A DNA stretch of 64,000 nucleotides. It comes from Physcia stellaris (lineage: Eukaryota > Ascomycota > Lecanoromycetes > Caliciales > Physciaceae). The translations under genes and the position numbers were made by a program. The stretch's first letter is position 1. Each line of letters begins with the position of its first letter. Under the pieces are notes generated by a model that saw nothing but the letters and a program-made list of their open reading frames with translations, was not told where the DNA came from and did no database searches. Location of the stretch: positions 41,802 through 105,801 of the forward strand of contig JABSSW010000083.1 of the NCBI GenBank assembly GCA_018902385.1. The letters are read 5' to 3'. Shown here piece after piece: positions 1 through 26,852 of the stretch.

Positions 1-2841
1 ATTCAATATAAATGAGCAATTTTGTCGTAAATTCATTAAAAATGTAATCAATTTTCGAATTGCTTTTCAACGTCAAAGTCAACAAAAATTTCAAAAAAAT
101 TTAATTTGATACATAATGAGTTTAATGTAAAAAAAAAGATTTTCATTTAAAATGAAACATATAGAAAATAATACATATATAATGAATTATGCGCTCGAAT
201 TACAATTCAATAAAAAAACAAATAAAAATTTCAAAAAAAATATAACGTGAAAAAAAGTCAAATACTAATAATGATCATTTGAAAAAAACACACATTTATA
301 ATGAACATTGAAATTATATCAATATAAAAAATGAATTTTTTTTTTTTTTGCAAATTTTTCATGTATCGAAAAATTTGATAAAATATCGATGAATTTTCGT
401 TTCATGTTTCATTTTTTTCGAAACGAAAATTATTTGTTTCACGATTTTCGTTATATGCGTAATGATAATTAACAACAATTTTCATTTTAAACGCATGAAA
501 TCAAATACATTCGTTTTTATCATAAATTTTATGAATTCAAATTGCGATATAAACAGAAATTTTGTCATTCGAAATTTTGAAAATTTCAAACGTTAATTGT
601 TGACGAAATGCAAATTTTTGAAAAAATTTTCATTGATTAAATGCATTTATAATGAATTAACAAAAATATATCACATTTTTAATGAAATTTATTTTTGATA
701 ATTATTTCGAGTATTTTTTGTATGAGAAATCGCAAATGTATTATGAACAATTTTTTGCATTGTTTCATATTTAAAGAATGTATCATCAATATTTTTTTGT
801 AAATCGACAAATTTTAAATCAATATTGATTTCGTTTATAGAAAATTTTCGATTAATATTGTTCGTTGTCGATAAATTTTTCGAATTCAAATAAACAAATT
901 GTTGTTTCAAAAATTGAAACATATCACAAAATGAAATAACAATTTGATTTCAATGAATATATATTAAAATTATTCAATAATATTGACAATGTTAATGATG
1001 AACAAATGATTGAAATCGAAAAATCATTAAATTTTTTTGTACAATTTTATTGCATTTGATTCGTTTAAATTTCAAAAATTTTACACAATTATCAACACAT
1101 TATCAACGAATTCAATTATATTGTAATTCAATCAAACATGTCTCGAAATTCAAAAAAAAACAAACAACGAACAAATGTTAAAAAAATTCAAAATTTACGA
1201 ATTCATACAAAACAATATTTCAATATCAACGAAAATGTTGAAAATGACAAACGATTATCGAAAAAACAACAACAATTTTTGAAATAAATTGATGAATATC
1301 ACGCACAAAATGAATTCATTTTAAAAAAAATTGAACAAAGATAATCGTCAAATGAACATCAAAAAATTGCACGAAAAATATGAATTATCAAACAAAATAT
1401 TACGTTAATAATGAAATTTATTAATATAAATATCAATTTTGATGTCGTTTTTTCAATCGATATTTTTTAAAATGTTTTCACGAAAAACGAACGTTTCGTC
1501 ATTACGTTCACAAAAAATGAATCATTTATCAATGTTTTTGTATCAAAATTTTTCACGATTTCATTTTCAAATTTCGTTAAAAATGTATCAATTTTCATTT
1601 TTCAAATTACATTTACATTTTATTTTCAACATTACGTTTTTTTTTTCAAATTTCGAATTCAAACATCATTTTGAACGAAAACGTACAAAATGTCATTAAA
1701 AATGTTGTCGTCGATAAAATTGATAAATTTATTTTTTCGTTATTTATGAAGCAAATTTTTTTTTTCGTTCAAAACGAAAAGTAAAAAAAATAATTCATTA
1801 AAAAGAAAATTTTTGTTCATGCAAAATATCAAAATTGCATATTTTTTGAAAAATGTTTCAATTTTTAATATATCAAATTTTGCACGAAATGTTTCACAAT
1901 TATTCGACGAATGAAACAAATTCGATATATTTGTTATACGCGAAATATTCATATTTTTACGTTATTGAAATGAAATTTATCGACAAAAATCGATCATTTG
2001 AAAAGTTTTGAAAAAATTTTACAACGATTGAAAAATACGTTTTTAATGAATTCATCAATCAATTTTTCGTTAAAAGTGTATGAACGTTCAAATTTTTTAT
2101 ATTTAACGAAATTTGTGTTTTTCGCGTTAAATTTATTTGAAATTTTTGTGAATTTCATCGTCGAAATACAAATTAAAAACTGTTTTTATTAAAAATGAAT
2201 TCATCGTTTTTTTTTTTTTTTTTTTTTTTATGAATTTTGTTTCGTTTTTTTTCACAAAATTAAATTAGAAATTCGAAATTTTTTCTTTATGAAAATGTTT
2301 CATTAAATATAAAGAAATTTTCATAATGTTTATATTAAATGTCATGTGTTTTAAAAACGTTAAATTTGTTTAAAATTTTTCAATTTTTTTCGTTGAAATA
2401 CAAATTAAATATGTCATTCATTTTAAATGAATTTATTTTCAAACATTACATTTATAATGAATTTTTTTGACTTTTTTTTTTACAGATGATTATTCAAAAA
2501 TTTTAAAAATTTTCGAATCGTGATGCGTTTTGAACGTTTCATACGACAATAAATAAAAAAAAAAAAATTTCGATTTTTTATTTACACGAAAATTATAAAA
2601 TCTATTCGTCAAAATCGAAAATTATTGAATGAAAAACATTCAACAAAAACGAAAAAATGTTTATCGACGAGCAATGAAATAAACATTTTAATTACAAAAA
2701 TCGAAAAAATTCGTTATTACAATAATGATAATGCAATTGTTCGTATTTATTGTAAACATATTCATCAATTTACAATGTGAAATTTTGAAAAAAAAAATAA
2801 CGTGAAAAAAAATAACGTCGAAAAAAATAATGCGAAAAAAA
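1..2841. other. Decayed AT-rich sequence, no recognisable gene
   Basis: Only short open frames of low-complexity Asn/Lys/Phe/Ile-rich peptide are present, and they share no domain I recognise. Long A and T homopolymers (for example around 2,200-2,230) are common. It is probably ancient repeat sequence mutated beyond recognition. Nothing else is seen. Confidence 0.7.
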
Positions 2842-3140
2842 ATCATTGACAATGTATGATACAAAATTTTGCGAATTTTTGTAAATTTTCTCGACGTTTC
2901 GATGTTTTTTTTCATTTTCAATGAACATTACACATAAAAAAATTATTGATAATGTATGATACAAAATTTTGCGAATTTTTGTAAATTTTTTCGACGTTTC
3001 GATGTTTTTTTTTCATTTTCAATGAACATTACACATAAAAAAATCATTGATAATGTATGATACAAAATTTTGCGAATTTTTGTAAATTTTTTCGACGTTT
3101 CGATGTTTTTTTTTTTTCATTTTCAATGAACATTACACAT
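2842..3140. repeat. Tandem repeat, three copies of about 100 bp
   Basis: A unit holding aatgtatgatacaaaatttt, a gtttcgatg run and aatgaacattacacat recurs with the first motif starting at 2,851, 2,951 and 3,052, giving a period of 100-101 bp. Copies are nearly identical apart from T-homopolymer length and a few C/T or A/G changes. A shorter, poorer repeat of about 18 bp (poly-A plus taacg/taatg) lies just upstream at about 2,785-2,850. The function is unknown; it may be a satellite remnant or the tail of an old element. Confidence 0.85.
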
Positions 3141-3487
3141 AATTTAAATTAACGTGTATTGAATTTTGCGCAATTTTTTTGAAATTTTTTAATTTTTGTT
3201 CATTAAAAACAAGTTTGTTCGTGAATTTTTTCAAAAAAATTTCATGCAAAGCTTCAGAATTAGAACTAATTTGCATATCAACAAACACAATTTTGACAAC
3301 GAAATAATTTTCAAAGTTTCAAAACTATTGCGATCATGAATCGATTTTTGTCATTTTTGCAACATTGAAATGCGCTTATCTTGCTTTACAATTGTAGCTA
3401 GATAAGTGAAAATTATATGAAATGAATGTTTGATGTGCAAGTTGCGAAACATCTGTACGAACGCATTGCATTTTTTGATGATTGATC
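3141..3487. repeat. Old dispersed repeat flanking the Gypsy insertion
   Basis: The stretch at about 3,310-3,480 resembles 12,535-12,690 in the same orientation. Shared landmarks are 'actattgcgat', an 'atcgatt' string, 'gaaatgcg', 'ttgcttta' and 'gtttgatgt'. The 7.8-kb Gypsy element therefore seems to have landed in, or beside, an older repeat family that has a second copy about 9 kb away. No coding content is visible. Confidence 0.55.
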
Positions 3488-3492
3488 GAAAT

Positions 3493-3684
3493 TGTTGATG
3501 TATTGGATGTAAGAAGCTTAATTAGTTATTTAGAAGTCAATGGCCAGATATATATCATAGTAATTACATAAGTCAAGTCACTCAGTTGACTGAATGTCAA
3601 TTGATTGACTAAGTGCTAGATACAGAAAGTCTGTCTATTCATCTGACAATCTTCAAATCCTAATCATAATGCCAATTCATAACA
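3493..3684 (-). repeat. LTR (3' LTR relative to element transcription)
   Basis: This is a 192-bp direct repeat of 11,112-11,303, starting TGTTGATGTA and ending TTCATAACA. It differs from its partner at 24 sites, all of them transitions in CpY or RpG context. It is preceded by the target duplication GAAAT at 3,488-3,492. Confidence 0.95.
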
Positions 3685-4119
3685 ATCTGTTTCAATAAAA
3701 AGAAGTTAGCATTCGACCCGATGCTATTCATAGTCATACTATCATTCATACTTCATATCCATATCATATCTCTCAGCTGAATCGAGGAAAGCGACGAATC
3801 AGAACGTTGAAAAATTCGACGATGTTAAAGAAATTCGTAGCTTGATCAGCTGATTTGGTTAGCGAAATTGAAATGACGACGAAGCTAGCTAACGAAATCT
3901 TAAACGAAATGACAACGGCAAAGCTCTGCTTAGAAAGTAAAATAGCTTGCGAAATTGACTCGAAATATTTTGAGAATATTGCTTTAACTGAGAAAATCGA
4001 TGACATTGATGATCTTTCTTTAATTCTCGAAGTTGACGTTGTTGATGATGATGAAACTGACGATGATAAGACTAGTCAATCTGATAAAATAGTTTGATTC
4101 ATAGTTGTTTCGTAGTCAT

Positions 4120-4260
4120 TGACTAGATTCGTGACATTTTCGAGTTCTGAAAGATTTCGTCATATATCATGTTTTGATTCGTAATCTTTTCACTCAACAA
4201 GATACTTAACGCCTCGCTTCTTGATTATGCGCTTGTTGATGATGCGTGACAATTCAAAGA
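4120..4260 (-). pseudogene. Chromodomain remnant at the C-terminus of the Gypsy integrase
   Basis: On the minus strand the frame reads a short basic stretch (KRIIKKRGVKYLVE), then an aromatic-containing KDYES segment and RNLSEL. This is the layout of the chromodomains found after integrase in chromoviruses. The two positions where the family has tryptophan, after LVE and after HDI, are both TGA codons. Chromodomains of this type are thought to steer integration to heterochromatin, which fits the AT-rich location. Confidence 0.75.
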
Positions 4261-4899
4261 ATTTGACGTTAGTTGTATCGTCGTTCACGAAGACGGAATC
4301 AAAATGATTTGATTTAGATCGTTTGAAAAAATCAGCCGATGAAAACGGGCATTTTTTCAGTTGAATTACGCTGAAAACCGGATGAATAAATCAGTTGCTG
4401 GAAATATTCAGTCGATAGATCAGACGATCAATTTTCTCGATGATAGTGAAAGATTCAACGAATTGTTGGTCATATTTCTTGCTGATAGTCGAAAATATAT
4501 TATAGTTTTTGTGTAGTTTGATGAGCGCGACATTTTCTTGTTTCATGAACATAGATTGATGTTTTTTGTCATAGTGAAATTTAGCATTTATTTGATCAAA
4601 GATTATGACATCATTAGCATCTTAACGAGTGATAAAACGGCGTTTCTTTAGCGTGAATTCGAAGATATCGACGTCGATAAACTTAGTCAAATCAGTGATT
4701 TGAATTGAAATAAAGTCATAGACGATTTCATTTGGAAAATTGTCAATGTTAGTTGAATTGTTGAAGTTTCGTTGTACTTGCGACAAAACGTTAGGTCAGA
4801 GGTCAGAATATTTCAGCGTAAAAATCAGAAAACGAAAGACGATTTCAACGGTTTGATTAATTCGTTCCGACAAGTCGTCCGTTTGAGAATGATAAATAG

Positions 4900-5536
4900 C
4901 TGAATACAAGAGTTTAATTTCTAGTTTGATAAACATGACAATTCACATGTTCGATAGAAACTTTCTGTCACGATTCGAGATAATAGTTTTAGGTAATTTC
5001 CAATCAGTCATATCTAGACGATTTAGCAAGACATGATTTCATTGCGCAATTGTTCATGTGTTTTTGTTTGAAACTAGCACTATACGCTTGAAATATTTAC
5101 AGCTAATCGGCATCACGCAGTCGAATTGATCGATTCGTGACTTTGATAGAGTCAAAATGAAATCGATAGTAATAGTGTGAAAGAGAATATTCGAAGTGAA
5201 TATAGATTGCAGTGAATCATAGAATTTGTGCCGACGTGTTTGATATGTTTGACATTTCGGACAGTGCTTAAGAAAATTTTTGAGATATTTGAACAAGTCA
5301 CGAATGTAGTAGAAAGTTGCTATTTTCTCATAGCAACGAACGAAATTTGAATGACTATCATCGTGAGCGACGATTAGAATATTCTGAATAGTTGAGTGAG
5401 ATATGCACAGTCGATGAGATTCGTAAACGTGATTGTCAGTGATGAAATTATCAAATCGAAAAATTAGTTCATTAATCTCCCGATAAAAAGAAAGCTTGAC
5501 GACGTTCTCGTCGTTTTTATTTTGTTGATTTAGCAT
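4900..5536 (-). pseudogene. Gypsy integrase remnant
   Basis: The open part (5,054-5,536) holds an HHCC-type zinc-binding region, with two His near HDDSHS and CPKCQ further on, followed by the start of the catalytic core with an Asp in TITIDF. Below 5,054 the same frame continues through TGA codons into a region with SNRDRKFL and HSQTD, typical of the core. Integrase would insert the cDNA; this copy cannot make a full-length enzyme. Confidence 0.8.
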
Positions 5537-5551
5537 TGAGCATATTTTTTT

Positions 5552-5914
5552 TCAATTCAGATCGCTGATGTAATTTGCGACAAGTTTTTTGCGAAAATTT
5601 TTTTCAATTTTCACTAAAACTGTCGTGAAAAGAGTATCGAGCTCGTTTTTTTCGAGTGTTACGTCAGTATTGAAGCTGACTAAACGAGAAAGAGCGTCAG
5701 GCACAATGTGTTGCTTGTTCGATTTGTGACGCAGTTCGACGTCGAATCGTTGAATATAGTCAAAAGCGCGAACAAGTCGAAAATTGAGCTTGTCAGTGAA
5801 AGTTGTAGTCATGCTGATCTGTTTAGTTATGCCTAGAGTCGCGTCATGATTCGTGAAAATGATAGTGAAACGCTGCTTCGAGAAGTCGATTAAATGTTTT
5901 ATTTTTTTTAGCAT
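5552..5914 (-). pseudogene. Gypsy RNase H remnant
   Basis: The minus-strand frame ends with RLVRAFDYIQRFDVELRHK and then PDALSRL. This is the well-known C-terminal motif of the Ty3/Gypsy RNase H region, where the family has an RH.G..N..PDALSR pattern. The preceding part, with FTNHDATLGI, matches the usual active-site Asp neighbourhood loosely. It is separated from the RT and integrase frames by stops. Confidence 0.75.
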
Positions 5915-6033
5915 TCAGATTATATCAGCGAACTCTAGTTCGATGAATCAGTATTTTGTTTTCGCGTTCGTTAGAAGTCGACTAAAAAACAAAATAGATT
6001 CGATAGTTTTTTAGGCGAATATTTTTTATCATT

Positions 6034-6934
6034 TCATTTGACGCTATTTTTCACATGATATATCATGTCAATTAGTTCAAATTTCTTGTTAGCATCGAGG
6101 TCGACGTATAGTTTTTTACGAAAATCCGAATGAACGAGATAGAAAGACTTAGCTAGCAGAGATTGTAATGTTTGAAAGAAAATTAACTCTTCAATAGTGA
6201 AATTTTTAATTCTAGTGTTGCGTGAGTAGATTTTTCTGACATTGTCAGTTACAGATTCGTCGTGAAGTAGTTCAGTCTTCAGTTTTTGAAGCGATTTGAA
6301 CATTTCAACGTATCAAGGTACATAATTTCGTAGTCAGTTCGTGAGATTCAAATACGTTTTCAGCAGTTGCAAAATAATAAAAAAAAACAAGCGTGAAATA
6401 GTTTTCAGCTTTTTCTCAGCGATGGTTAGTTCAAGAAAGTCAATCTTCTGATTTAGCAAGTGAACAGTGAGGTAATCAATGAAAGTTTTTTTCGATTTGA
6501 TAGAAATGTTGTTAATTTTGAGCATATCGAAGATTTGCTTGAAATGAGTTAAATGTTTTTGTAAAATGTTTGAGTGAACGACGATATCGTTTACATATGT
6601 TTTAGCGAAAGCTCGAAACGATCGAAACAATCGATCGATTTGACGTTGTACGTAAACAGAAAAATTTTTGTAATTTATCACAGTTACGTTGAAACTTTCT
6701 TGATTTTTATGTGTGATCACAGTCAGTTTATGTTTGTCGTCTGAATGAATTTTTCATTGATAAAAAAAAGCTGAACAATTCAGCACAATAATGTATTGAC
6801 ATTTTAAAACAGCTGAAATTATGTCGGATTGAAGAGATAAAGAATACACATTCGATTGAATGATAGCGTTGAGATTTCGAATATTTACAACAGATCGATT
6901 TTTTTTTTTGTCGTTGATTTTTTTTCATACACAA
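6034..6934 (-). pseudogene. Gypsy reverse transcriptase remnant
   Basis: The segment 6,334-6,720 contains THKNQESFNV, YVQRQIDRL and TYVNDIVVHS, which correspond to RT palm motifs. The catalytic YVDD box is YVND here, so one catalytic aspartate is asparagine (a G->A change after A). The frame continues at 6,728-6,934 across a TGA where the family has tryptophan (FFYQ then stop). A C-terminal connection segment lies at 6,034-6,303. Polymerase activity is not expected. Confidence 0.8.
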
Positions 6935-7509
6935 AACACAAAATAATTAAATGAAATAAATTCGTCGATTCAATTAAGTTTATTTGATTCATGTAGTTTG
7001 TCAAAAGTTTCGTCGACAAGTTTTTTATTTTTTTTGTTTAAAAAGTATATTTTAGTTTTGTCAGGTATTTTTTGCTTTCAGTTCGACTTGAGCGAAATTC
7101 TCATTCAGTTTTTCTGAGATAGCTTGACAAAGTTTGTGTTTTTTCAAATATTTGAATAGATTGACATCAGTTTTGTGATAATTTGCACGACATCGTCGCT
7201 AGATCGATGAATGATGACGTCATTATCAAAAATGATTTTTGTCGAAAGCTTCAGGTCAGTTTTTGGCTTCGCATTTTTCAAGTTTGAAATAGTTGAAGTT
7301 TCGCTTGTGAAAACTAAAAATTGGAAGTCGTTATAACAAGTTGGCGAAAACTGAACATCTAATTTTGAAAAAGTTTGACGTTGCGACAGAATCGAATTGT
7401 GAAAAATTTTCGAAGCTGCGATTGTAACGGCGATAGTTTCAAAAATAAAAAGGTTATTATCATTCAGCACGTTGATGACGACGTAGATCGCGACGATGAT
7501 TTTCTTGAA
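6935..7509 (-). pseudogene. Gypsy linker between protease and RT
   Basis: A 108-codon open frame (7,144-7,470) lies on the element strand between the protease and RT regions. It is rich in Ser, Thr, Asp and Ile and has no motif I recognise. Position and strand make it part of the former pol polyprotein. The remainder is broken by stops. Confidence 0.55.
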
Positions 7510-8214
7510 TCAGTTAGTTTTATGTTTTTGAGCAAAACGTCGTAGAGTTAAATCGACGACGTGGCTAGTTTCGTCGACGTGAATTTGAAAAACATTGATG
7601 TAGTTTATTTCGATTATGTGATCGACGCGATAATTTCGAGATATATGAACGGTTTGATTGTTTTCATTGCGAACGATAATTTGCTTAATATTGAAGTTTA
7701 TTAAGTGAACGTAAAGTGAGAGTTTCAGCTCATTCGACTCAAAAAAATAATCTCGATCGGATGAGACAGTCGTATAGTGCATTGGAAGAACTAGCTCGAA
7801 ACGAAAAAATATTACAGTGATTTTACGAGCATGAATCGAAGTTTGAATAGCTATTTTAGACGTTCGAATTTTTAAATTAGCGATAATTTCACAGTTTTCG
7901 ATGTAAGTTGTTTTTTTAAATATGCTAACATCGATTTTTTTTGATTCAATAACGTCATTGTTCAGTAGCATGTTAGTCTTGAGATTGTCGATCAAATGAA
8001 TTTTTTTGATGATTTTAGTTCTAATTGTGACGTCATTTTTTTGGTCAGAAAAGTACATAGATAGAATAGCATACTCGGTTGTCATGTGCTTGTCGACATT
8101 TAGTTCACGTATTGAAATGAATGTAGTCATGATTTTAATAGACACATCCGAAGCTTGTTTCTTGAAGAATTGACGATCACAAAAAGTTATTTCAGCGTCG
8201 GTGTCTAAACACAT
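7510..8214 (-). pseudogene. Gypsy aspartic protease region remnant
   Basis: A 234-codon open frame begins with CLDTDAEITFCDRQF, the place of the retropepsin active-site motif D-T-G. The glycine position is Asp, which a G->A change after G would explain. The rest (IPxR-like and long hydrophobic/charged stretches) matches the protease-linked part of the second copy at 57,021-57,992 in order and spacing, including a DRxFF segment after the active site. Loss of the active-site glycine predicts an inactive protease. Confidence 0.75.
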
Positions 8215-8265
8215 AGATTCGGCATCAGCTGTAGAAAATAAAACTACATGAATACGTGCATAGTT

Positions 8266-10589
8266 TCAGTCTCGAAAGTCATGATCAGTGTCGACGTTTT
8301 TGTTGAAGTCGACGTCTGAAACAATGATGAGAATCGATGCAGATTTAGTTTTTTCAGGAAAATCGAAATGAGCATTTGTGAGAGATTTTGACGTTTTTGA
8401 TACAATAGTTGAGTCAGAATCGATGATTTCGATTCTCGATTGCGTGATAGATGAGTTCGTAAGTTCGTCTGACTTTGAAGTTGTCAGAAGTTTTCTAGTT
8501 GAATTTCGAATAATCACACTAATGCTTTGAGTAGTCATAATAATAGAAGAGAATTGATTAGATACATTTGCTGAATAAATCAAGCTAGTTTTGTCAAAAC
8601 AGTCGAAACGAAGATGTTCGTGTAATTTATTGTTGAAGAAAAAGTCATTGTTACACTTTTTGCAGATAGTTATCTTATTCGATTTTGACAAAAGCATTTT
8701 TGACGTGATCAAATAGACAGCGTTGTCATTTTCGTTTTCGAAATCGTTGTAAGAAATTGATTGATAATATGAAATATTTTTTGAAACATGATAGTCGTCA
8801 GCATTCTTTTCGTCAAAATAGTTTTTTTCAGCTTTTTCAGCTTCGTTATTCTCGTCAACGTTGTAGATTTTAGTCTTGTCAGACTTGTCAAATCTTCTGA
8901 CGTTTGGCTTGTTGAACTTCTGATTCGAAACGAATTCGCTTGAGAATTTTAGCAGAAGAGGTTGTCTTGCAGTCGACAAGACAGTTGAAAATGAATCGAA
9001 AGGTTTTTGCTGATAGTTTTTTGAAAATTGACGAGACTGATAACTTGATTGAGATTGATAAGCTGAATTTCTATACTGATATGAGTTGTAGCCCGAAAGC
9101 GATCACATATACGCTTGATTTGAATAGAAAAGATTGGCGTAGGATTGTTGATTAGAATCGTCTCTATCTCGATTTTGCTTATTTGGTCGATTAGATCGAT
9201 CAGCATTATTACTGGAATCTGAGTTGCTAGCTTGATCGCGATGACGAGTTGTCATATTCATTCATACATTTTTTTTCGCATTCAGCTGATTCAAAAATGT
9301 AGTCAAAGTGATATTTTCGAACGGTTCGGAAATTTGAGCTCGAAAGTTCAGTTCGAGATTATTTCAGACAATGATACATTGATGAAATATTGATGGAAAG
9401 TTTGCAGTTTTGACATGTCGAAAAATATTTTGCATGTAAGTTCGAGATTTGCGTTCTCGACGAGCGTCGACATAAATGTAGTTTTCGATTTGTAGTTTTT
9501 TCAGAACAGTCGACGTTCGTTTTTTGAATCGCTTGATGAAATGAGTGCATCAGCGTTCAATACTGATTTTTCGAAAAAAGTTTTTTTCAATTTCAATTAG
9601 TTTCGCGTTATATCAGGTTAAGGCATCGTTTTTTAGACAGATAGACATCAGCTTCTTGATTTTAAGACCGGATGAGATTTTTTTCAGATTTTTAAGATGA
9701 TCAGTAAAAATGAAAACGTTTCGATAAAAGTTGTGTCGATCAGAGTTGACAATGAATTGATTTGTGCCGATTGAATTTTCATAGTCAGAATCAAAGTAGT
9801 TCACATTTTCGACAGATTTGAAAGCTGATTGTAAAATATTGTTGACAGCAGAAGATGTTTCAGTTGCGAATCGAGACATCGAAACGAACGCGATAGTCAC
9901 GATCATGATGTCATTTCACAAAGCTTGATTCATTCCAGTTGACGGCGGAATTATTGAAGACATGTTGCGACGAATTTTTTCGATCTGAGTGAAAAAAAAT
10001 GTCTGACTATTGTCAGTCTGAATGCTGACTGAGCGACGTTCACTGTTCGTGATATCTGACTCGACAATAAACTGACGAGAAACGTTTAGGTCAAAATCAG
10101 AATTAGTGATGAGCGAGTAGCTAGAAACTATTGACGAGAAGGTAAAATCACGGATTTCTGAATTGCTATTTCGTCGAAATCTTGAGTTAATAGAAACTTC
10201 AGACTGAATAGCTGTAGGAATTTCGAATCGGATAGAAGTATCGAGTCTGGATACGAGAGATTGCTCATTCGGAAGCTGTACACGAAATACTGAAAATGAC
10301 GACGAACTGTTAACAGACGAACTAGTTACGATTTCGAGTCTAGTTGAGAAGCTTCGAAAGACGTTCGATTGTCGAAAATCGACAATGTCGATTCGAAATT
10401 GATTCAAGGCGTTTTGCAATGAGACAACGTCGTCAATTCATTGAAATGAGTAGACAGCGTCGTGAGCTCGTGTTCTAGAAAATTTGTAGGTTTTAGCAAT
10501 GAGAATCTCAATCGTACGTCTATTTTCGTTGCTGAGCAGTGAACTGAAAAAATGGTCAGTTTGCAGAAATTCGTGTATCGATCACGCAA
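8266..10589 (-). pseudogene. Gypsy gag-like region with a C2HC zinc finger
   Basis: Several broken frames (10,404-10,589; 9,916-10,419; 9,613-9,906; 8,266-8,979) lie between the 5' LTR and the protease. They are Ser/Asn/Gln-rich as in gag. The frame at 8,266-8,979 holds a zinc-finger-like motif CKKCNNDFFFNNKLHEHL...C (C-x2-C-x3-F-x5-L-x2-H-x4-C) at about 8,605-8,670. The same pattern recurs in the copy on the other flank at about 56,905-56,975. Gag would form the particle and bind RNA. Confidence 0.65.
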
Positions 10590-11111
10590 GCTGAGTAATC
10601 TGATTAGAAACTGAAGTCAAAATGCCGAAAAGGTGTTAAGAAAGTGTCTGAGATTGTCTTTCTAGTCAGTGGTAGAATGTAGAAGACTTTTTAGACTAGT
10701 CGGAAAATTTTTTCAGTCATAGAAAGTTTGCGGCAGAAAGCAGATACAAATCAAAAAAATGTAGTAATAGCTTATTGCAAAAAGAACAGTCTGATATCAA
10801 GAGATGACTCCAAAACGAGACAACGAACGTAGGTGAAAAAAAGAAAAAACTGAAAAAAAAGAAAATTCAAATAGATGAGATTTGGCTTCACTCAACGAAA
10901 AGATGCGAAATTGGCAGGTTACATCGATGACGAATCAAATGCTTCGATTGATGACGTAGTTAGTCTGACTCGACGCAGCGATAATGCAATGAAGCACATC
11001 GAAAAGAAAGACTGTCTTGATGATGAGATAGTACAAGTTGACTGATTTCTGATTGCTGCTAGCTATAGCTAGCGAACTGATTTGATGATGTGGTAGATGA
11101 TGCTATCAGAT

Positions 11112-11303
11112 TGTTGATGTATTGGGTGTAAGAAGCTTAATTAGCTATTTAGGAATCAATGACCAGATATATATCATAGTAATTACATAAGTCAAGTCAT
11201 TCAGTTGATTGAGTGTCAGTTGATTGATTAGATGTTAAGTACAGGAAGTTTGTCTATTCATCTGACAGCCTCCAAGTTCTAGTCATAATGTCAATTCATA
11301 ACA
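11112..11303 (-). repeat. LTR (5' LTR relative to element transcription)
   Basis: This is a 192-bp partner of 3,493-3,684 with the same TGTTG and AACA ends. It is followed immediately by GAAAT (11,304-11,308), the target-site duplication. The promoter and polyadenylation signals expected of an LTR cannot be recognised. Confidence 0.95.
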
Positions 11304-11308
11304 GAAAT

Positions 11309-13884: not shown

Positions 13885-16800
13885 TCAAGCCAATGTGGAA
13901 TCATCAAACAAATCATCAAGAAGGATGTCATAACACGCTTTCCAATCTGCCACTACCATGCTATAGGTGCTCTCGAAGGCGTTGATGCTTAGTTGTCTGA
14001 AAAAAGGCTTCAGGACACGATCAACGATGTCCTCTGTACATATATCCCTGGTTACTTCTGAGCTGAGCAGAGGTTTCCGCTTGCCAATGGGAGCCACGCT
14101 TGCAATTGTCGGAGAAAGCGCATTATCATGTCCGCCGGAGTATGAGTCAAGGTCTTCTGCCAATTCATCAACTAATGCTACAGGACTCCATGCATGGGGT
14201 CGATAAACGGCGTCAACAGTATCGGTAACGAAGAGCCATTCTCGCAATTGGAACTCATCTGGCGCCAGGGTGACGAGGGTGTCGAGGAGTTTGCATGCTT
14301 GTAGGATGGAGTGAACGTTGTAGGTATCGTGTTGCTCGCCTGGAAATACTGATGATAGGGCCTCATACAGCTCCGAACTGATGATGGGCCAAAAGGAGGC
14401 CATGTGCACCGCTGAGATCTTCAATACTAATGCCCGTAGCAGCATGTAGATCTCGGCCCGTGTCGCCGACGAAGGAGAAGATGCGGCCGTTGCTGTTAGT
14501 AGTTCTAGAACCTTCACTTGAATCGCGACGAGGTTCGTGACATAGGCGTCATCAGCGGCAGCAAGCACCAGAAGTGTCATCCTACGGAGGATAAGCTGGG
14601 TCTTGCGATCTGCCTCTATTCGGGCAGAAGAAGCCCCCACACCAAACATGATCCCTGCAGCAGTTGGAGCAAGTATGCGTGAAAGGTAGTCTTGAATTCG
14701 GTCCTTATCTAGCAACGCCCACTGCCGCAAGACCGGAACCCAGCCTTCTTCCGCAAGGCTAAGTGATCTTGTGCAGAAGAATCTTGAATCATTGAATGCT
14801 TCCGCTACAAGTCTGCGCCAAACTTTTGAAGCCTCAGGTATCCGGGACATAGCAAGGAAGATGCGCAGAGTGCTTGATGAAGCCGTTTGAGGGTAAGCTT
14901 TAGACTGAATGGTGGGTGTGAGGATCTGTAAGGAGATGATTGATGATGCAGCTGCAATACGATCTGTATCAACCAGAATCTTCGAAAGTTTTGGAAGAAG
15001 CAAGGCTACGATGCCGACAATGTCATCTGATTGAGTTGGCCTAGGATTAGTCGCATGGTCTGCACTAGCAACATCGCTGTCCGCGGGCTTCCCTTCGTCT
15101 TGTGCGAAAGTCAATGGTTTCGCGGTGAAGGTCGCAGCCAAGAGCCTCACGAAAAGATCCTGCGATATTGTAAGTCAACTAAGCTTACGGGAGGAGAGTA
15201 CATACTCCCAGATCTCGTCGCATTCTTCGCTGTTCACCGAAGGTTGTATTGTTGACTTTTTCTCCCAGCACTGCCGTGAACTCGAGAAGTCTGGGCAAAG
15301 TCTGCCTTTGCGGCAGTGGATTAGCAAGTACATCTTTGAGAAATGTCATACAATCAGTCCAAATCTCATCCATAGCGTCGTCTTCCAGCGAGCGCATATA
15401 CCGTACAAGAAAGTCAGCTAGAGTGTTGTCCGAGATATCTGCAGTCAGGCTCGATTTCCGACCGGGGTCTAAAGCGTTCGGGTTTGTCCGACTGTACATG
15501 GCGTTGAACAGAGCTGGGATGATGTTCCTGGGTCTCGAACCGTCGAGAACATGAAGGAGATTGAAGACAGCTGAAGATCTGGACGTATCCATTTGGTCTC
15601 TTGATTGACACCATATCTCGACGAGAATTTCAAGACACTCAAGTGGCTCTGCGGCAAAAAGGTGTTCGAGTATCCGACGTGTCCGATTTTTCATGCGTAC
15701 TGAAGTATAGTTGAGTGATGCTAAGGTAATCAAGTCCCTTGCTTGACTGCTTTGACCGTGACTTGCCCAAGTCCATATGTCCAAACATACATGTATCGCG
15801 TCCTTGAAGCACAATAATACCGTTAGTCGGTTGTTGGCGGTGGTGCGCTTTGATCTGCTAAGCTCTGGTGCAAATACTCCGGACACCATGTTCCCAAAGA
15901 ATCCCTGGCTCTGCTCTGGGGCCTTAAGGGATATTGTACCGGCTTCGTCCTGAAGTAATCGTTCATGAGCTCGTGCAAGACTGCGTTCTAAGCCGTGTAG
16001 AAGAGAATGTAAGGTCACGAGAGGTTGGTAATTAGCCGATGACTTGCCCCGTCCCTCGAACGCCGCTCGCAGAAATTCGGAAACCGCTCTTATTGTCTTG
16101 TTGAGACACTCCACAAGAGGCATTAGAATATGAAATGCATTTTCCGCATACAACGGTAGACACTCATCCAGAAAATGAACCCAATGGTCAAGGACAGGAT
16201 AGCTACCTGGCGAGCTGAGACCCAAGAGCAAGCAATCAAGGAGCGCGGGAGATGGAGGACAAGCTGCTGCCGAGGGATCATCAATCTCACTTGCCTCCAC
16301 TGAATCAGATAGACTTGGTAAAGATTGCAGATTATCACTTGTGAACATTCTCGGGTGCGTTAATCTGGGAGGAGCTTTAGGATCCATTGCACGCGTTCGC
16401 ATGACTCTCACAAGTAAATGCATTAGTTCCACTTGTAGCAAACTGTCTTCCCGTCTGATGGACCGATTTAGAGCCACTATCACGGTATCTTCCATAATCG
16501 AGTGTTCTACAGGCACAGAAGACTGTCCAGGCAGCATATGCTGCAGTAACGTCGCCGCTACTCGTCGCAAAGCGAAAGATTGAGCTATCAGACTTGTTCC
16601 GTCCGAAGGGTGATCCTGCAGAACGGTAAGACAAGCACGGATGAGGAATGCTTGGATAGTGGCTTCATCATTTACGCCACTATTAGGGAAGGCTGCGATG
16701 CTCTCCGCAGCTGAGGCCTGCCGATTGTCAGGTTGGCGCTCTTCCATTGTTAGCGATGCCCAGATGTTCCCCGGAGAGCCAACTACCAGATTAGACATAG

Positions 16801-19800
16801 TTTGAAGCAAATATTGGCATTCCTCAAGATCGCTGAGGTCATAAAGAGCAGGCTTTGCAGCGTTACTCGAAGAGAAGATTGAACAGTTCACAAACAACTT
16901 GGACGTTCGCAAGTGATTTAGTAGTAGTTGTACAATTCTAACGGAGACATGTTGGTTATGATCCGCATATGAACCCACGTGGAGTGAACTTACAGGTGGA
17001 GAGCTGGCAGCGATTGTAGCCAGTTGCTGGTAAATCTTGATATTTCCGTTGTGGGTTCGGAAAGAGAATCCAATAGTAGCATCAAGGGACGTTCAAGTAC
17101 TATCATCTCTGGCGTGATACTTGCTGTCTGGCTCTCTGGGCCTAGACGCGTGGAACGTGAGAGGGACGAGCGCCGAGATTGCAAGCTGTTGATGGATGAG
17201 CTACTGTGGGTCCAAAGCGTGGTGAAGCGACGTGCTCCTTCAAGCGCTGCTCCGGCAGGTAGTTTACAGTCATCAATCATTAAGGTTGCAATACACGCTT
17301 CTATGAATCGAGTGCCTGGCAAGACCATTTGGAGTCGCCAAATGCAGCGGACAGCCTCCACGTTGTTGCTAGGCTTTGACGGAGAGAGCCACGGCCACAG
17401 ATTCGTGACAAGGTCCGTAATGAGTCGTCGTATCTGATAGCTGCTATGCCAGATCTCTGAAGGCAATGCAATCGAAAAGACCTCCATTGCAGATATAACA
17501 GCCGTGATGGTTTCTATGGACGTAGGTGTTCCGCTATGGTCTCTTACGCTCGCTAAAGCGTCTACGAGTGCCTGTAAACAAGTGTCTCTGTTTATGTCGT
17601 CCGTCTTTATGATTTTCTGTGTAATCTTTTCTAGGAGAGAGAGGTGCATCTCCAGATACCGTGCTTGGCACTTTCCCCGTAGTTGTTGCAGGATCAATTG
17701 GACAATGTTATGTAAAAGCAGCTGACCAATGTTCTCTAAGGAAAGTGGAATGCCCGCCTGATCGATGTTACCTTGAGAGTGTCCGTAGAACGTTTGAACG
17801 GCTTTTAGAAATTGCTGACTGGACTCTGCAAAATCGCTGAACCCTTCTTCAAACATTTCTGAAGATGGTGCAGCAAGCCCCTTCTCGAACGCTCGCTCGG
17901 GGATCAGGTCAAGAAGGGAGAGGGCAATCTTCAGCGCTATCTGTTCAGGCTCTGTTAGACTTGTCTTTCCCTGACCCACAGACTCGCGCATGCTGTTTCG
18001 TAGGTATATAACAGTTAGTAGCGTGACCATCGGTATATGCGTCGTTTGCATTTCCTCATCTCGGATGTTAAACCTATTGATAATGAAAAAGATTAGACCC
18101 AAGCCATCTTGATTATCATCCAGAGCCTCACGGTTGCTGAAGCTCGATGTCAAAATCCTCGATATCTTGCCCCATATTAGTCCCGCTTCTATGTTATCAA
18201 AAAGGACGCTAGCACTGCGAAAGACTTCTTCAAAATTGTCTTGTGAAGGGGCTATACTCTGATACTGCCATACACTCTGGAGTAGCGGGATGAGTATTTG
18301 AGGAACAACCATGCCACCGATCTCCCATCGATCCATAAGCGACAAGCATATGCGAAAAGGACGAGCCTTCTCGGTTGGCGTCAGGGAATCGGTCTGTACC
18401 ATCTTGAGAATGGTTCGTACCAGAGCGTCAAGGCTATAACGCTCAAAGTAAGTGTGATAATCCTCCTGGGGTATATTTAATGGCGTCAAAGCGATACTGG
18501 GGGATGTGTGCTTCGTGGTACGGGGGGTACTTGGCTGAGATTCAGCAATTGGCTCTGGCCCGAGGAACCAGGCCCACAGCCTTCGATTTAGGCTCATCTC
18601 GCGGCGAGTCACTACCGAGGCAGCAGCGGCTACTAGTCTATCAAGGTCGTCGCGAGCCGTCTCGCGCTGTAGCACATCGGAATGTATCGGAAGATGGGTA
18701 ACCAGGAGGTCTAAGAAGTTACGCTGGATGAGGAGTTGCTCGTCACGAAGTCCGGCAGCGAAAGAACGCACAAGAAGACCAGGCTCTGGAGAAATGACCG
18801 CCTCGACAGTTGATAATGGCTCATCCATGGCTCCTAGCACTCCTTCATTCAGACTTTGGTGATGGCCGGTGGTTTCGCGACCTTGCTTTACAGACCCAAG
18901 CTGTGGTAGGTTGCGGACCATGAAAGCTAAAGCCCCTTGACGGCGGCTAGTACTTGTTATTGAGGCCAAAAACAAGCATTGCCAATAAAATTGATCACTG
19001 GACATATCTCGCGGCTGACTGTCGTTGCCACATCTTTGGCCAATTGCCGTCCTCAATTTGAGCAGGATCGAATGAGTACGCTCAAACTCATCACTGTTTT
19101 GCTCTTCCAACCCTGGGAGCAAAGCGAGAATAATTGCCTTGAGTGCTGGACGTAGGAAAGATTGATCTATCGCTAGTATGTGAATCTCGAACAGTGAAAG
19201 CACTGCTGGTCGGACCGAGAGCGAGGCGTAAGATAGGGCTGGAGAGAGACCTGGCAAGTAGAGTGCTAGATCTCTTGCGAGACCCTCGGGCTAATATGAT
19301 GTTCAGCGACGGCGACACTTCAATCTAGGGCAGCAGAGCTCTCGGGCTGTGTGTTACGTACGCCTAAGACATTGAAGATATAGGCATAGACCTCCATAGT
19401 TTTTTGGTGTACCCCTGAGGGCAAGGAGGGACTGAGGCATTGTGCAAGGCGCCTTGCGACTAGAGGTTTGTGGGGAATCTCTGCGATTTCCGAAGGTCTG
19501 AGTTGCAAAGCCTAGGGAAACATCGACAATCAGCCTCTACAGGGAAAATTGGAGATGCCGGAGTTTTGGCACCTTGAGCAGTCGCGCAAGGAAGGATATG
19601 TAGTCAGCCCATTCCTGCAATGCTGTGTCGAACAGCGACAACGCTCGCCCCACAGCAGAAGAATACCGGCGGTAATTCTTGTCCTTCTTGGTTGAAGCTA
19701 CAGCATGCTGTTAACGAAACCTCCTGATCATGCTCGATGCTCAGCACGGACGTACTGTCTTCTGCAGCAAATCGGGGCCTAGGATTAATTTTTGGCGAGG

Positions 19801-19858
19801 ACCTCCCCGAACTTGCAGGAGACGTAGCTCTCTGCAATCGGCTCGCATCGAGCGACAT
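13885..19858 (-). CDS. DOP1: Dopey family protein Dop1, Golgi-endosome traffic
   Basis: Dop1 works with Mon2 and a flippase at the Golgi/endosome and is needed for retrograde traffic and cell polarity. Six exons were read on the minus strand: 19,858-19,756; 19,697-19,573; 19,511-19,362; 19,290-16,994; 16,937-15,206; 15,159-13,885, giving 1,893 codons in one phase. Introns are 46-71 nt. The conserved N-terminal Dopey domain is clear (LSLFDTALQEWADYISFLAR, then LPSGVHQKTMEVYAYIF and LYLPGLSPALSYASLSVRP), as is the C-terminal block around DEFQLREWLFVTDTVDAVY. The start ATG opens MSLDASR, followed by a Ser/Pro-rich leader as in fungal homologues. Length fits the family. MON1 starts 253 bp away on the other strand. 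Identity is secure; the third intron and small exon edges are less so. Confidence 0.93.
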
Positions 19859-20111
19859 GTTGTAAGAAAGCCGTCCTGCACTGGCCGTAGGTGTGACAAA
19901 TTGGTGACATGACTAACACATCATTGGAGGAGGTGGTGAAATTGCTGGGTGAAGATGGTGTTCTCCTCCGCTCTCAGTTCGGGTACGGTCTCCGCCGAAG
20001 ACAGGACCCCCCTTCCTCTTTCTTTCTCGAACATGCAATATTCACGTACCCCCATTCAGCTTCTGCCGATCATCGTCGCCTTGCTAATTAAGTGGGTTAT
20101 GTTTTGGTTCA
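19859..20111. promoter_or_regulatory. Shared DOP1/MON1 divergent promoter region
   Basis: Only 253 bp separate the start codons of the two head-to-head genes, so both core promoters and 5' UTRs must lie here. No TATA box or known factor site stands out. The gap is short enough for a bidirectional promoter, which is inference. Confidence 0.6.
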
Positions 20112-22270
20112 ATGACTCCGCCTCTGGATGCTTCGTCAAGAGGCCGAGACATTAATGCAGCTTATGTGGTAAAGAGCAAGTCCTCTCAACAAGGGGAAGA
20201 AGTGACTAGCGAGCAGTCGGGCAAGGAATTCGAATCTCGCGAAGACCCTTTGTCGGTACTTGGCATCGCCGATGCGGTTCCGCGTGAGTACAAACCGCCT
20301 CCGCTGCCAATTAGACCTCATGATCTGGCGAAACCCAGTCAGACAGATCATCCTCCACCCAGCAGTCTACACTTACCGAAAACGTCGCCAAGACCAAAAC
20401 TGCAGTCTGCAGCTACCACTGCCGTATCTTTGACAGATATCCACACTCAATCCTACCAGGATGGCTCACGTGAGACATACGCTGCCCAAGCCAAGCCGAC
20501 ATCCTCCAACCAACTTTTGAAAAAGTATGGTAGTATAAGGCCAGTCAAGGGCAATGGCAGCATTGTGGCGGAGACCGCCAGCGTCAGGAGCTTTGCACCA
20601 ACACTTGAGACAGGCGCGGATGTGGAAAGCTTGCTGGGAAATGTTCTTGGAGCATCTCGGGAGATCCCAAACCGGACGGAATTGAGCTACCAGACTGAGA
20701 ATCTTGATGTGTTTGATTCGTGTCTTTACGAGGTTAACGATGAACTTTCGTCCTTTGCCAAAGAGTTCGACGAGCTGGCTGAATCGAGCGTGGAGGACGG
20801 GACCGAAGGTATCCTCCTCAGCAGCAAGAGCCGGAAGCCGACTAACAGAAGCTGCAGAGCAGCTTCTGAATCTATGGAAAGCCAAGAGAAAGCACTTTCT
20901 CATTCTCTCGTCCGCCGGTAAGCCTATATACAACCGACATGGGGACGATAACTTGATCTCGGGTTACATTGGAGTCATTCAGACCATCATATCCTTCTAT
21001 GAGGGCGCGCAGGACCGACTAAAGGGTTTCACAGCAGCAGACGCTAGGTTTGTAATCATGTCTCAAGGACCTTTATATCTCGTGGCTATATCTAAGCTTG
21101 GCGAGAGCGATGCCCAGCTTGGGGTCCAATTGGAAGCTTTGTATATGCAAATACTTTCAACCTTGACTTCGCCTGTCTTGGGCCACCTATTCTCTAATCG
21201 TCCCTCAACCGATCTAAGGCGCCCGTTGCAAGGAACAGAAACGTTGTTGTCCGCCTTGGCTGATTCTTTCACTCGCGGCTCCTCTTCCACATTGCTATCG
21301 GCCCTCGAATGCCTGCGGATCCGCAAAAGCCACAGGCAGCTAATAAATCACACCTTGCTTCACAAAAGATGCGAGAGTCTCCTTTATGGGTTGATTGTCG
21401 CCGGAGGCAGACTTGTTAGCGTTGTGAGGCCTCGGAGACATTCCTTACACCCTAGCGATCTTCAACTGATATTCAACATGCTCTTCGAAGCCGACAGCGT
21501 CAAGACTGGAGGTGGCGAGAATTGGATCCCTTTATGTTTGCCAGGCTTCAACAGAAATGGCTACCTATATATGTATGTAAGTTTCATTCAACCGAAAGTC
21601 CTAGACGACGCCGAGACTAGCCGCACAAGCGATAAGTTCGGGAAAAAGGACGAAGTTGCTGTGCTTTTGATTAGTGCGAACAAGGATAGCTTTTACGAGC
21701 TCAGAAATATGCGAAATGCCGTAGTCGAGGTTAGTGCTGCCTCTCATGTCGCTTGTGTAATTGATTAAATCGCGACAAGGAGCTCGAAAAGAATGGCAGC
21801 ATGCAAATCGTCACGTCTGCTGTTGCTCGTGGACGTCCGACAGCCACAGACATTGTACCAGGAACCGTTTTGCGGCATTTTCTCTACAAGTCAAAAGCTA
21901 ACGTCCAGTTCGTTATGCCATCATATGATCCATACTTCAGTACATTAGTAGCACGGCGAAGGCAAGGATCTTACCAAATTCCTAATATCTCTAATGACGT
22001 CCTAACGGTATGGACAGATTGCTTTCTCTGTATCATAGCCTCCACGCAAGCATTCACGCAAAGAACGCCCATCTCAAGGTGCATCACTGTGTGAGTCGGG
22101 AAGCTACTTCATTGGCTTGGGTGACGCCACTGTTCGAAATGTACTGCGTTGCTGGATCCTCGACAAGCCGAAATGCCCTTGCGCAAAGCGCGAATCAGAT
22201 TGTTCAGTGGGCCCGCCGAGAAGAAGAGCGGATTTTTATCATTGGTGGCGCTGTAAGTCCTCAGGCTTGA
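20112..22270 (+). CDS. MON1: Vacuolar fusion protein Mon1 (Rab7/Ypt7 GEF subunit)
   Basis: Mon1 pairs with Ccz1 as the exchange factor that activates Ypt7/Rab7 on late endosomes and vacuoles. Exons: 20,112-20,808; 20,858-21,729; 21,780-21,961; 22,018-22,270, giving 667 residues. The N-terminal third is disordered and Pro/Ser-rich. The three longin-like segments follow: [16 protein letters not shown] with [12 protein letters not shown], then [14 protein letters not shown] with [16 protein letters not shown], then [11 protein letters not shown] and [13 protein letters not shown] to the end [12 protein letters not shown]. The third intron appears to be GC-AG (AG|GCAAGG ... CAG); no GT donor restores the conserved ARRRLLSLY join. 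A GTAAGT right after GGA would allow a slightly different C-terminus. The start is the first ATG of the frame. Confidence 0.93.
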
Positions 22271-23207
22271 ACTGCGAGCTCATGAACTCAGTCGGAGAAT
22301 CGAAAGGCAATGCTGATGGCAAGAAGGTATTTTGATTGAAGAGACCGCTTGATCATACAATGGCCAAGAAGTCTTTCCCTAGGGCATAGGGCATAAGACC
22401 GGATCACTTGTGGCAGACACTCTGTTGATCAATGGAACATATGAGAATAATAACATGGTAAATCGGAACTGTCAGCACGCAATACTATCCTGCCTTTTCG
22501 AGTGTCTCAGGAAACTACCAGCAACAAACCACCACCGTACACGTAGCCCGTAAGGGCCAATCATGAAGCAATAACAAATATGGAAGCCGAGGTCTACGGC
22601 CAAAGAAGTGAGGTGTCTCCGATTGGCTCCTCCATACATAATTCCCATTGTCAACATCCAAATTACCTATTCACTGCGTGGGGTCTGGTACTGTCCTACG
22701 TGCTCTGAACTGGGCGAGATGCCCGCAGTTGTCTGGAGATGGTGTGCCTCACAGTAGAAGACAATCAATCGTGGGACGATGCTATTCAAACACCAAAATA
22801 TAACCCATGTTGCCAGTGGTCTGCATATAGACTACCAGGTGTACGGACATTCACTTCGAATACGCAACTAAAACTCTGAAAGCGCCATGGCGGCAAAAGT
22901 CCGGCCCATCAGATCTTGCCCATGATGCGGCATGATATAGAAGCGAAGAGTCGAGCAGCTATGATACGGGAAAAAAGCGGAAACCATCTCTTTATTCATC
23001 TGCATAGCGTCCAATCTGGAATCGCCTCCAAGGATATCGATAGAACCTGTAAAAAGCATACGGAAAATGCCAGAAATAGCAATAGAGCATAATTGGGAAA
23101 TTCGTGCAGCCTCAGTAACGCTCTGGTGGCCTGCTGAAGCGTGAAGTCGCAGAATTTAGCATCACTGAGGCCACCAAGGCTCGGTATTTGCGCTGCGATT
23201 ACCGAGC
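22271..23207. other. Convergent intergenic region after MON1
   Basis: These 937 bp lie between the 3' ends of MON1 (+) and the next gene (-). Frames are short and overlap in both strands, without domain features. It likely contains the two 3' UTRs. Nothing else is seen. Confidence 0.6.
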
Positions 23208-26200: not shown

Positions 26201-26852
26201 CTCCCGGGCTTCTTAGGTGTCCATTGATGTGAGTGGGGCGTCGTGGAATGTTGTAACTGGTGGAAGAGCTTTGCATCATTGCATACGACCTGACATCTCC
26301 AAGCTCAGAGCCTCTGGACGGCCCTCGATGGTGGGTCGCGGCAGAGGTCTGGCTTCTGTTACGGTATACGAAGGTAGACGGCGAGCCGCCATTCGTGCGC
26401 CCCAGGCTGTGGTAAGTTGACAAATCGTGGGGCATGCCATGCTCGTCGGGGGTCCCGTGAGCTTCATCACGGTAGCGGTGAGTTCTTTTGCTTGCCGACG
26501 GTGGAACAGAGCTTGACAACCTGGGCGGCGAAAGTCGTTGACTAGAAGGAATTTTTCGGTTTGACCTGAGTGCAAGTTCCGCAACGTCACCGGTTTCGGT
26601 TCGGTTCTTGAGCATGCTCTGTACAGAGGAAGGTGTGGGTAGAGCGGCAATTCGAGCCACACCACTTGGCGTCCTGAGTTGGGCCGCTCGTTTTCCAGTA
26701 TCGGAAGTGTCACTGTCTGGTGGTGTCTCGATTGCAGGGCCATTTCGGCCAATGTGGCCAGCAGACAGCTCAGACAGAGGCATAGTCTTACTGCAATGCT
26801 TCTTGGATATCCAGCTGAATTGGTGCCGATGTGGTTGACATGGAAGTGGCAC
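23208..26852 (-). CDS. Ser/Pro-rich fungal protein, function unknown
   Basis: I do not recognise a domain. Minus-strand coding is supported from about 26,852: exon to 26,089, a 146-nt intron (25,943-26,088) joining ...LYRSGSR to SPFGVNRGTSFR, then a long exon. The next join near 24,250 is uncertain: either a 56-nt intron with a weak GTCAGA donor, or a one-base frame break in a run of six C. A further intron of about 47 nt (near 23,740-23,790) leads to a better-defined C-terminal part with FQTTPFGRKIRLNPL, RFVESFDLPASDF and a basic end KVKTWFLHL. The body is disordered, with many SP/TP sites suggesting kinase targets. The start may be ATG at 26,852 or 26,782, or lie further upstream (to 27,126) via a phase-compatible intron with a GTAAGA donor. 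Confidence 0.65.

Follow-up and report, generated by a model that had tools for sequence, protein, structure and literature searches.

C-to-T mutation of repeats at CpC and CpT, with CpA largely spared, in the lichen fungus Physcia stellaris

RIP in Neurospora crassa, which depends on RID and DIM-2, resembles what is described here for Physcia stellaris in its C-to-T changes on both strands, its repeats, its AT-rich islands and its RID- and DIM-2-type genes, but it targets CpA, which Physcia largely spares while CpC and CpT are taken. CpA preference is the basis of the RIPper and RIPCAL indices. As described by Badet and Croll (2025, PMC12543289), it is common to RIP-like defences. According to van Wyk (2021, PMC7882544), large RIP-affected regions have a product index of about 1.6 and a substrate index of 0.2-0.3. 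According to Amselem (2015, PMC4352252), transposons of Botrytis, Sclerotinia and Magnaporthe carry CpT signatures, and a CpT signature is also described for Anisogramma (PMC10998396). These fungi, with one to two copies of RID/Masc1-type genes per species, share CpT-to-TpT change in transposons with Physcia. In the published descriptions, however, CpT accompanies CpA, whereas in Physcia CpC leads and CpA is undepleted; the term 'CpC' is absent from the main text of Amselem (2015). These published CpT signatures may be the same tendency in a milder form. The same source reports CpG-type signatures in transposons of Basidiomycota and Tuber, likewise C-to-T in a non-CpA context, but CpG is the best-preserved dinucleotide in Physcia (rho up to 4.0). 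Among lichen fungi like Physcia, Gyalolechia flavorubescens and Cladonia metacorallifera are reported to be RIP-positive by CpA indices (van Wyk 2021, PMC7882544). For Cladonia rangiformis, transposon islands rich in AT are reported together with homologues of RID and DIM-2; RIP was called there by GC content, and the text of that paper is without the whole words 'CpA' and 'dinucleotide' (PMC12542154). A CpC-led, CpA-sparing RIP was not found in the available text of the literature searched (including PMC2621366, PMC8959702, PMC5555474, PMC7513301, PMC4350166 and PMC7296669), a statement that covers this literature and no other.

The window, i.e. the whole stretch of 64,000 nucleotides analysed, contains the following features.

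1..3490, no strand: AT-rich flank; GC 0.21, CC 0, GG 0, CT+AG 47, CA+TG 427, CG 124
3488..3492, no strand: target-site duplication GAAAT
3493..3684, minus strand: LTR, 3' relative to the minus coding strand, with TG...CA ends
3685..11109, minus strand: mutated internal region of the LTR retrotransposon, strand-biased (CC 22 vs GG 74, CT 238 vs AG 507)
6034..10419, minus strand: element coding frame of 1,462 codons with 17 in-frame stops, all TGA
11112..11303, minus strand: LTR, 5' relative to the coding strand, with TG...CA ends; 24 transitions against its partner, all CpC/CpT
11304..11308, no strand: target-site duplication GAAAT
14001..52000, no strand: gene-rich control, unaffected; GC 0.496, CC rho 0.89, CT rho 1.09
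52500..64000, no strand: AT-rich repeat block; GC 0.265, CC 3 and GG 0 in 11.5 kb, CG 690

The direct repeat 3491-3684 / 11110-11303 aligns without gaps at 88% identity and, once trimmed to its TG...CA ends, gives LTRs of 192 bp with GAAAT on both sides. As the first-pass annotation had claimed, the ungapped alignment of this pair shows 24 mismatches, exclusively transitions, and all 24 lie in CpY context (C followed by C or T, or G preceded by A or G). It had also claimed that no CpA/TpG or CpG site differs although dozens exist. The CpA/TpG part holds, with 0/31 differing, while the CpG part is empty because the LTRs are without any CpG. With 73 C-bearing sites (42 CpY and 31 CpA), the chance that a blind draw places 24 of 24 changed sites in CpY is 3.0e-8 (Fisher 3.1e-8). 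Within the internal region, Pfam gave an Integrase_H2C2 match (PF17921, an integrase zinc domain) above cut-off and an RVT_1 match scoring below it; three ORF pieces from the element's side had no Pfam match above cut-off, and Rfam returned 0 matches across the window at gathering scores. The element may be of the Ty3 rather than the Ty1 type.

LTR pairs of five elements, assigned by position among 19 LTR matches, show 77 transitions and 0 transversions, with changes at 69/102 CpY and 8/138 CpR sites; two of these pairs align over just 110-140 bp, and the one on contig C9 is spaced 10.4 kb. CpA accounts for 8/77 of the transitions. For the element copies (11 non-overlapping loci), changes are found at 200/201 CpC, 1803/2458 CpT, 208/2759 CpA and 89/2203 CpG sites, with no notable effect of the 5' neighbour of the changed C. 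In the closest copies, 99% of CpC, 71% of CpT, 4.7% of CpA and 0.8% of CpG sites differ. Alignments below 84% identity (80% for the second family), shorter than 300 bp or 100% identical were excluded before counting. Two copies are separated from the window copy by 417 transitions, with 0 transversions, in 3,386 aligned columns; the ratio is 440:6 for one copy and 2,058:153 over nine loci. A second repeat family (7 loci) has changes at 930/1136 CpT, 7/7 CpC, 514/3199 CpA (16%) and 323/2747 CpG (12%) sites. Its 2,084 transitions to 465 transversions mark it as the older one. This family is unclassified; none of three ORF pieces taken from the 52-64 kb block has a Pfam match above cut-off. Neither outcome that the first-pass annotation named as refuting it was seen among the fetched loci: CpA leads the changes in neither repeat family and in none of the five LTR pairs, and the CpY bias is not limited to a single element, since the second family and the other LTR pairs behave alike. 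The target order that best explains these counts would be CpC at least equal to CpT, both far above CpA, and CpA above CpG. Changes at CpA and CpG are nonzero, and we count them against reading the process as CpY-directed RIP.

Base composition follows the same context. In AT-rich repeat DNA, CC/GG is virtually gone and CA, TG and CG are in excess, whereas gene-rich DNA is normal. Tiles with GC <0.30 (n=244) have a rho of 0.00-0.01 for CC, 0.07-0.41 for CT, 1.27-1.89 for CA and 2.3-4.0 for CG; CA rho is 1.09-1.89 in tiles with GC <0.40, and GC-rich tiles have dinucleotide rho near 1. Simulated CpY mutation of the gene stretch, with hand-set rates, approximates the dinucleotides of 52500-64000, which a CpA simulation does not match. 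Each of the 4 AT-rich window stretches used as queries has further copies in the genome: for part 501-3000 of the flank, one lies on contig C31 (identity up to 93%), and 56001-57500 and 60001-63500 each recur elsewhere. Blind genome samples were GC-rich and unaffected in 14/14 cases (46 kb), none falling in AT-rich DNA. As in RIP in the wide sense, the mutation is confined to repeated DNA (in the window, with all blind samples GC-rich), and C-to-T (and G-to-A) transitions predominate in the LTR pairs and both repeat families. The marks of classical CpA-type RIP (CpA preferred, CpA/TpG depleted, TpA enriched) are absent. The RIPper/RIPCAL thresholds were passed by 0/215 AT-rich 1-kb windows, and the RIPCAL threshold by 2/100 GC-rich ones; in tiles with GC <0.40 the product index is 0.46-0.57 and the substrate index 1.08-2.25. 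Because the mutation of repeats spares CpA, standard RIP detectors miss the repeats of Physcia stellaris.

A search for RID/Dim-2 type methyltransferases, proposed in the first-pass annotation, was productive: the PF00145 profile found one DIM-2-like gene and two RID-type genes in the Physcia stellaris genome. The RID homologue (P0001/L022, contig C5) has SPPCQ, EQT and QIGNAVPP motifs; the second RID-type gene (L020, contig C6) has SPPCQ and EET and contains introns. A RID-class methyltransferase with catalytic motifs, as belongs to RIP in the wide sense, is therefore present. A tree built quickly under LG+G4 from 58 chosen rows of 239 proteins plus L020, in which long branches are joined, was used only to place P0001 as nested among its Lecanoromycete relatives and L020 in a separate clade. 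Altered domains had been anticipated; the RID homologue looks ordinary, with nothing in its sequence that accounts for a switch of context, while the second RID-type gene is divergent.

With a probability of roughly 0.78, we read these data as a repeat-directed, RIP-type C-to-T process with a CpY target, carried out most likely by a RID-class enzyme in the sexual cycle. Repeated DNA would be recognised and cytosines before a pyrimidine turned into thymines on both strands. The agent would most likely be a RID-class C5-methyltransferase, encoded either by the RID homologue (contig C5) or by the second RID-type gene (contig C6), and DIM-2 may also be involved. For the action in the sexual cycle we infer a homology trigger and premeiotic timing. 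The earlier idea of a RIP-like or deaminase-like activity with a different target context is supported, RIP-like fitting better because the changes fall on both strands, in a balance that varies between copies, and extend to other AT-rich repeats but not to gene-rich DNA, and because the genome has RID/DIM-2-type genes.

An unlikely alternative is that DIM-2 or a RID-type enzyme methylates CpY in repeats and the resulting methylcytosines are lost by slow deamination, with no mutagenic burst. A DIM-2-like gene exists, the methylase would set the context and repeat tiles show graded loss, but at 417:0 (two copies) and 77:0 (LTR pairs) transitions to transversions, slow deamination would need to be very many times faster than other mutation. 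This argument is strongest for young copies, as older ones carry transversions (2,084:465 in the second family).

While a single LTR pair cannot show direction, C-to-T is supported by stop codons and by outgroup copies, which have C at 354/780 variable CpY sites vs 162/2,046 all-T TpY sites. Both strands are mutated, and copies vary in strand balance. The window copy is skewed to G-to-A on the sense strand, with AG/CT at 1.58-2.78 vs 0.52-1.29 in 14 other copies over the same stretches (both strands counted); this bias was counted against a CpY-RIP reading. It is what editing of retroelement cDNA or single-stranded DNA by an APOBEC-like cytidine deaminase predicts, and a search for deaminases, also proposed earlier, gave 8 PF00383 matches in the genome. 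Such editing is nevertheless very improbable. The bias is absent from the 14 other copies, so that the one fixed strand of AID/APOBEC retro-editing (sense G-to-A) is not seen, and the other AT-rich repeats of the window, though maybe old retroelements too, are depleted on both strands. PF08210 had no match in the genome, in a search without positive control that does not establish absence. APOBEC3G alters GG at the first G, whereas here the second G is altered (TGG to TGA).

The coding frame of the window copy contains 0 TAA, 0 TAG and 0 TGG, and 97 CAA/CAG/CGA codons are intact (p = 1.3e-20, assuming that every TGA was formerly TGG). TGA-only stops with intact CAA/CAG/CGA are the signature expected of CpC targeting. 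Besides TGA stops, other copies have 10 in-frame TAA/TAG stops, which we also count against a CpY-RIP reading; 7 of the 10 fall where the window copy has CAA/CAG/CGA (7/394 such sites covered). The 2,173 residues of 12 out of 12 relatives found with the integrase piece comprise 1 Gly, 0 Pro, 75 His, 78 Gln, 51 Cys and 22 Trp. For Gly and Pro this scarcity is the signature expected of CpY change, although some relatives may be of the same species and their sampling is biased because the query itself is mutated; Trp is kept because long ORFs retain it by survivorship. A viral_contigs scan for the relatives' DNA confirmed none. A progenitor that read TGA as Trp, or base-call errors of the assembly at CC, would fit a main frame open for at least 1,462 codons with TGA read through and the fetched copies, where TGA stands at 94/94 covered sites and TGG at none. 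Either is hardly credible, as CC/GG loss extends outside frames with GC down to 0.21, the two longest gene-region frames of the same window keep 12 and 5 TGG, relatives in other records are likewise short of Gly and Pro, and errors would not track repeats. UV-type damage in an exposed lichen has next to no chance: CpC and CpT are dipyrimidines, but the UV signature targets TpC and CpC, and it is contradicted by the sparing of gene-rich DNA and by a context in which TpC is undepleted (TC rho 1.27-1.53 in AT-rich tiles) and preserved except before a pyrimidine (TCA changed at 185/2161 vs TCT at 795/1104, proportions only, since some overlapping loci were counted twice).

The CpC/CpT pattern of Physcia stellaris is the reverse of the usual CpA preference of fungal RIP. 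Since two other Lecanoromycetes are reported to be RIP-positive by CpA indices, a change of context may have taken place inside this class. That the RIP machinery of the Physcia lineage swapped its target from CpA to CpY, via the RID homologue or the second, divergent RID-type gene, is a tentative proposal at slightly less than even odds; a natural change of this kind in what the mutator targets could be traced to one branch and to RID-type sequences. As repeats are strongly mutated yet 0/215 windows pass the indices, surveys can miss such clades. If the proposed switch is true, the result would be a CpA-sparing mutator whose only route to a stop is TGG-to-TGA and which otherwise inactivates elements by removing their Gly, Pro and Trp codons. 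Stops other than TGA would be nearly ruled out, a point that matters for recognising and annotating decayed elements.

The retrotransposon on the minus strand at 3493-11303 is bounded by two long terminal repeats (LTRs):

3493-3684, minus-oriented element: 192-bp LTR, TG...CA ends, outer flank duplicated as GAAAT
11112-11303, minus-oriented element: 192-bp LTR, TG...CA ends, outer flank duplicated as GAAAT

Its interior (3685-11109) contains an integrase zinc-binding domain (Pfam) and a weak reverse transcriptase match, below Pfam's cut-off. As claimed in the first-pass annotation, the 24 differences between the LTRs are all transitions. In 24 of 24 cases a C on one of the two strands has C or T as its 3' neighbour, and the CpA sites are unchanged (0 of 31 differ). 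The claim that CpG sites were unchanged as well proved empty, since the LTRs are without any CpG.

The bias towards CpY (CpC or CpT) reaches beyond this single element and is found in other LTR pairs, element copies and a second, unclassified repeat family. Five LTR pairs, assigned by position and two of them partial, show 77 transitions and no transversions, with 69 changes at CpY and 8 at CpA. Element copies were compared to the window copy without overlap between loci. Across 9 loci, 157/157 CpC, 1483/1994 CpT, 189/2309 CpA and 87/1897 CpG sites are changed (2,058 transitions, 153 transversions). For the element's other end, covered by 2 loci, these values are 43/44, 320/464, 19/450 and 2/306, respectively, with 417 transitions and no transversions. 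The 5' neighbour and the second 3' base have little effect, with 66-74% of CpT changed when the 5' neighbour is A, G or T. In the second family, taken from 56-57.5 kb of the window (7 loci), 930/1136 CpT and 7/7 CpC sites are changed, next to 514/3199 CpA and 323/2747 CpG. CpA and CpG changes are thus commoner than in the element and transversions number 465 (vs 2,084 transitions), as expected of older copies.

The same preference is visible in base composition alone. Loci picked by similarity to repeats include 244 tiles (500 bp each) whose GC is below 0.30; dinucleotide ratios in these are 0.00-0.01 for CC, 0.07-0.41 for CT, 1.27-1.89 for CA and 2.3-4.0 for CG; GC-rich tiles have ratios near 1. 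One 4,500-bp locus (L054) even has zero CC and zero GG. At a GC of 0.35-0.40, CC has fallen to 0.16 and CT only to 0.87, so CC is lost before CT as GC drops, ranking CpC above CpT. At manually chosen rates, a CpY simulation on the gene stretch approximates 52500-64000, and a CpA simulation gives the opposite. The GC of 0.21 at 1-3490 lies below every simulated round. None of 215 AT-rich 1-kb windows from loci picked in this way passes RIPper or RIPCAL thresholds, and 2 of 100 GC-rich windows pass those of RIPCAL. C has a pyrimidine as its 3' neighbour in less than 35% of cases in 210/215 AT-rich vs 0/100 GC-rich windows.

The window's two most saturated stretches are both repeated in the genome. 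Stretch 501-3000 has a further copy on contig C31 (up to 93% identity). At least 39 other long matches exist for 60001-63500 (91-96% identity, 40 of 491 candidates scored), where CpY is almost gone. Copies this saturated may resemble each other through exhausted targets. The gene-rich 38 kb adjoining the element is unaffected, with sharp borders at 14000 and 52000 (gene-rich GC about 0.50 vs 0.19-0.38 per kb in mutated AT-rich DNA). In blind sampling, 14 of 14 positions (46 kb) fell in GC-rich, unaffected DNA and none in AT-rich DNA.

For CpY mutation, the sole route to a stop codon is TGG to TGA. The frame at 6034-10419 (minus strand, 1,462 codons) has 17 stops, all TGA (p 1.3e-20, assuming every TGA was once TGG), no TGG and 97 CAA, CAG or CGA codons. 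Twelve other loci carry TGA at 94/94 covered stop sites and no TGG in frame; a thirteenth covered none of the sites. In-frame stops of these twelve also include 9 TAA and 1 TAG. Of the CAA/CAG/CGA sites of the window copy that they cover, 7/394 have turned into stops; both findings are consistent with weak CpA/CpG activity. In 12 of 14 other repeat loci scanned, a frame free of TAA and TAG extends over 400 codons or more, and all 12 best frames, selected for this absence, have 0 TGG, 0-8 GGN and 0-3 CCN codons; one second frame within 1-14000 has 1 TGG. Outgroup copies have C at 354/780 C/T-variable sites vs 162/2,046 invariant-T sites. Together with the TGA-limited stops, this excess sets the direction as C-to-T. 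Mutated element frames are open up to 1,554 codons when TGA is read as Trp, because the mutator's stops are almost only TGA, and automatic pipelines could misread this as a genetic code change. Retroelement proteins P0240-P0251, relatives of the element's integrase piece, contain 1 Gly and 0 Pro in a total of 2,173 residues, alongside 22 surviving Trp. Amino-acid composition may be a means of screening protein databases for CpY mutation.

Mutation occurred on both strands. The window copy is biased along its length (CC 22 vs GG 74; CT 238 vs AG 507), with roughly one plus-strand CpY for every two on the minus strand. This asymmetry is absent from 14 other copies, with AG/CT of 0.52-1.29 vs 1.58-2.78 in matching stretches of the window copy, and suggests few rounds, with one strand favoured per round. 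Editing of cDNA as the source of the changes would fix a single strand, but strand balance varies between copies.

The analysed assembly (43.97 Mb, 147 contigs) differs in extent from the published one (184 scaffolds, 46.57 Mb, GC 43.32%; PMC7513301). The proposed search for RID/DIM-2-type methyltransferases was successful, as PF00145 gave 4 scored candidates representing three genes. Their names and motif labels, which follow usage in the literature rather than a match to Neurospora sequences, are:

L020, contig C6: second RID-type enzyme with SPPCQSFSPAQ and EET motifs
L021: DIM-2-like enzyme
L022/P0001, contig C5: RID homologue with EQT motif

The L022 product matches the Physcia stellaris protein G7Y79_00005g016670 (P0001) and is identical to it over residues 132-796 and 796-929 with an intron in between (first piece 665/673, running 8 residues into the intron; second 134/134). 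In the tree, this homologue is nested among Lecanoromycete relatives, e.g., Usnea and Heterodermia; L020 belongs to a separate clade, whose members include Heterodermia.

The process works like RIP (repeat-induced C-to-T mutation), but it is not classical CpA-type RIP, since CpA is not its preferred target. The simplest account is a repeat-directed, RID-class, CpY-specific RIP, for which we infer homology sensing of the repeats, the timing of mutation and a RID-class enzyme as putative agent. The abundant apothecia described for Physcia stellaris (PMC7513301) fit this account; the word RIP is absent from that genome paper. A CpA preference is described as common to RIP-like defences (PMC12543289). 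CpT alongside CpA is known from Botrytis, Sclerotinia and Magnaporthe (PMC4352252), Anisogramma (PMC10998396) and some Neurospora and Stagonospora repeats (PMC2621366). An apparent CpT signal from CpA saturation is ruled out in Physcia stellaris repeats, where CpA is in excess. Physcia belongs to the Lecanoromycetes (Caliciales, Physciaceae), and since two other Lecanoromycetes are listed as RIP-positive in a CpA-index study (PMC7882544), a switch of target context inside this class is suggested.
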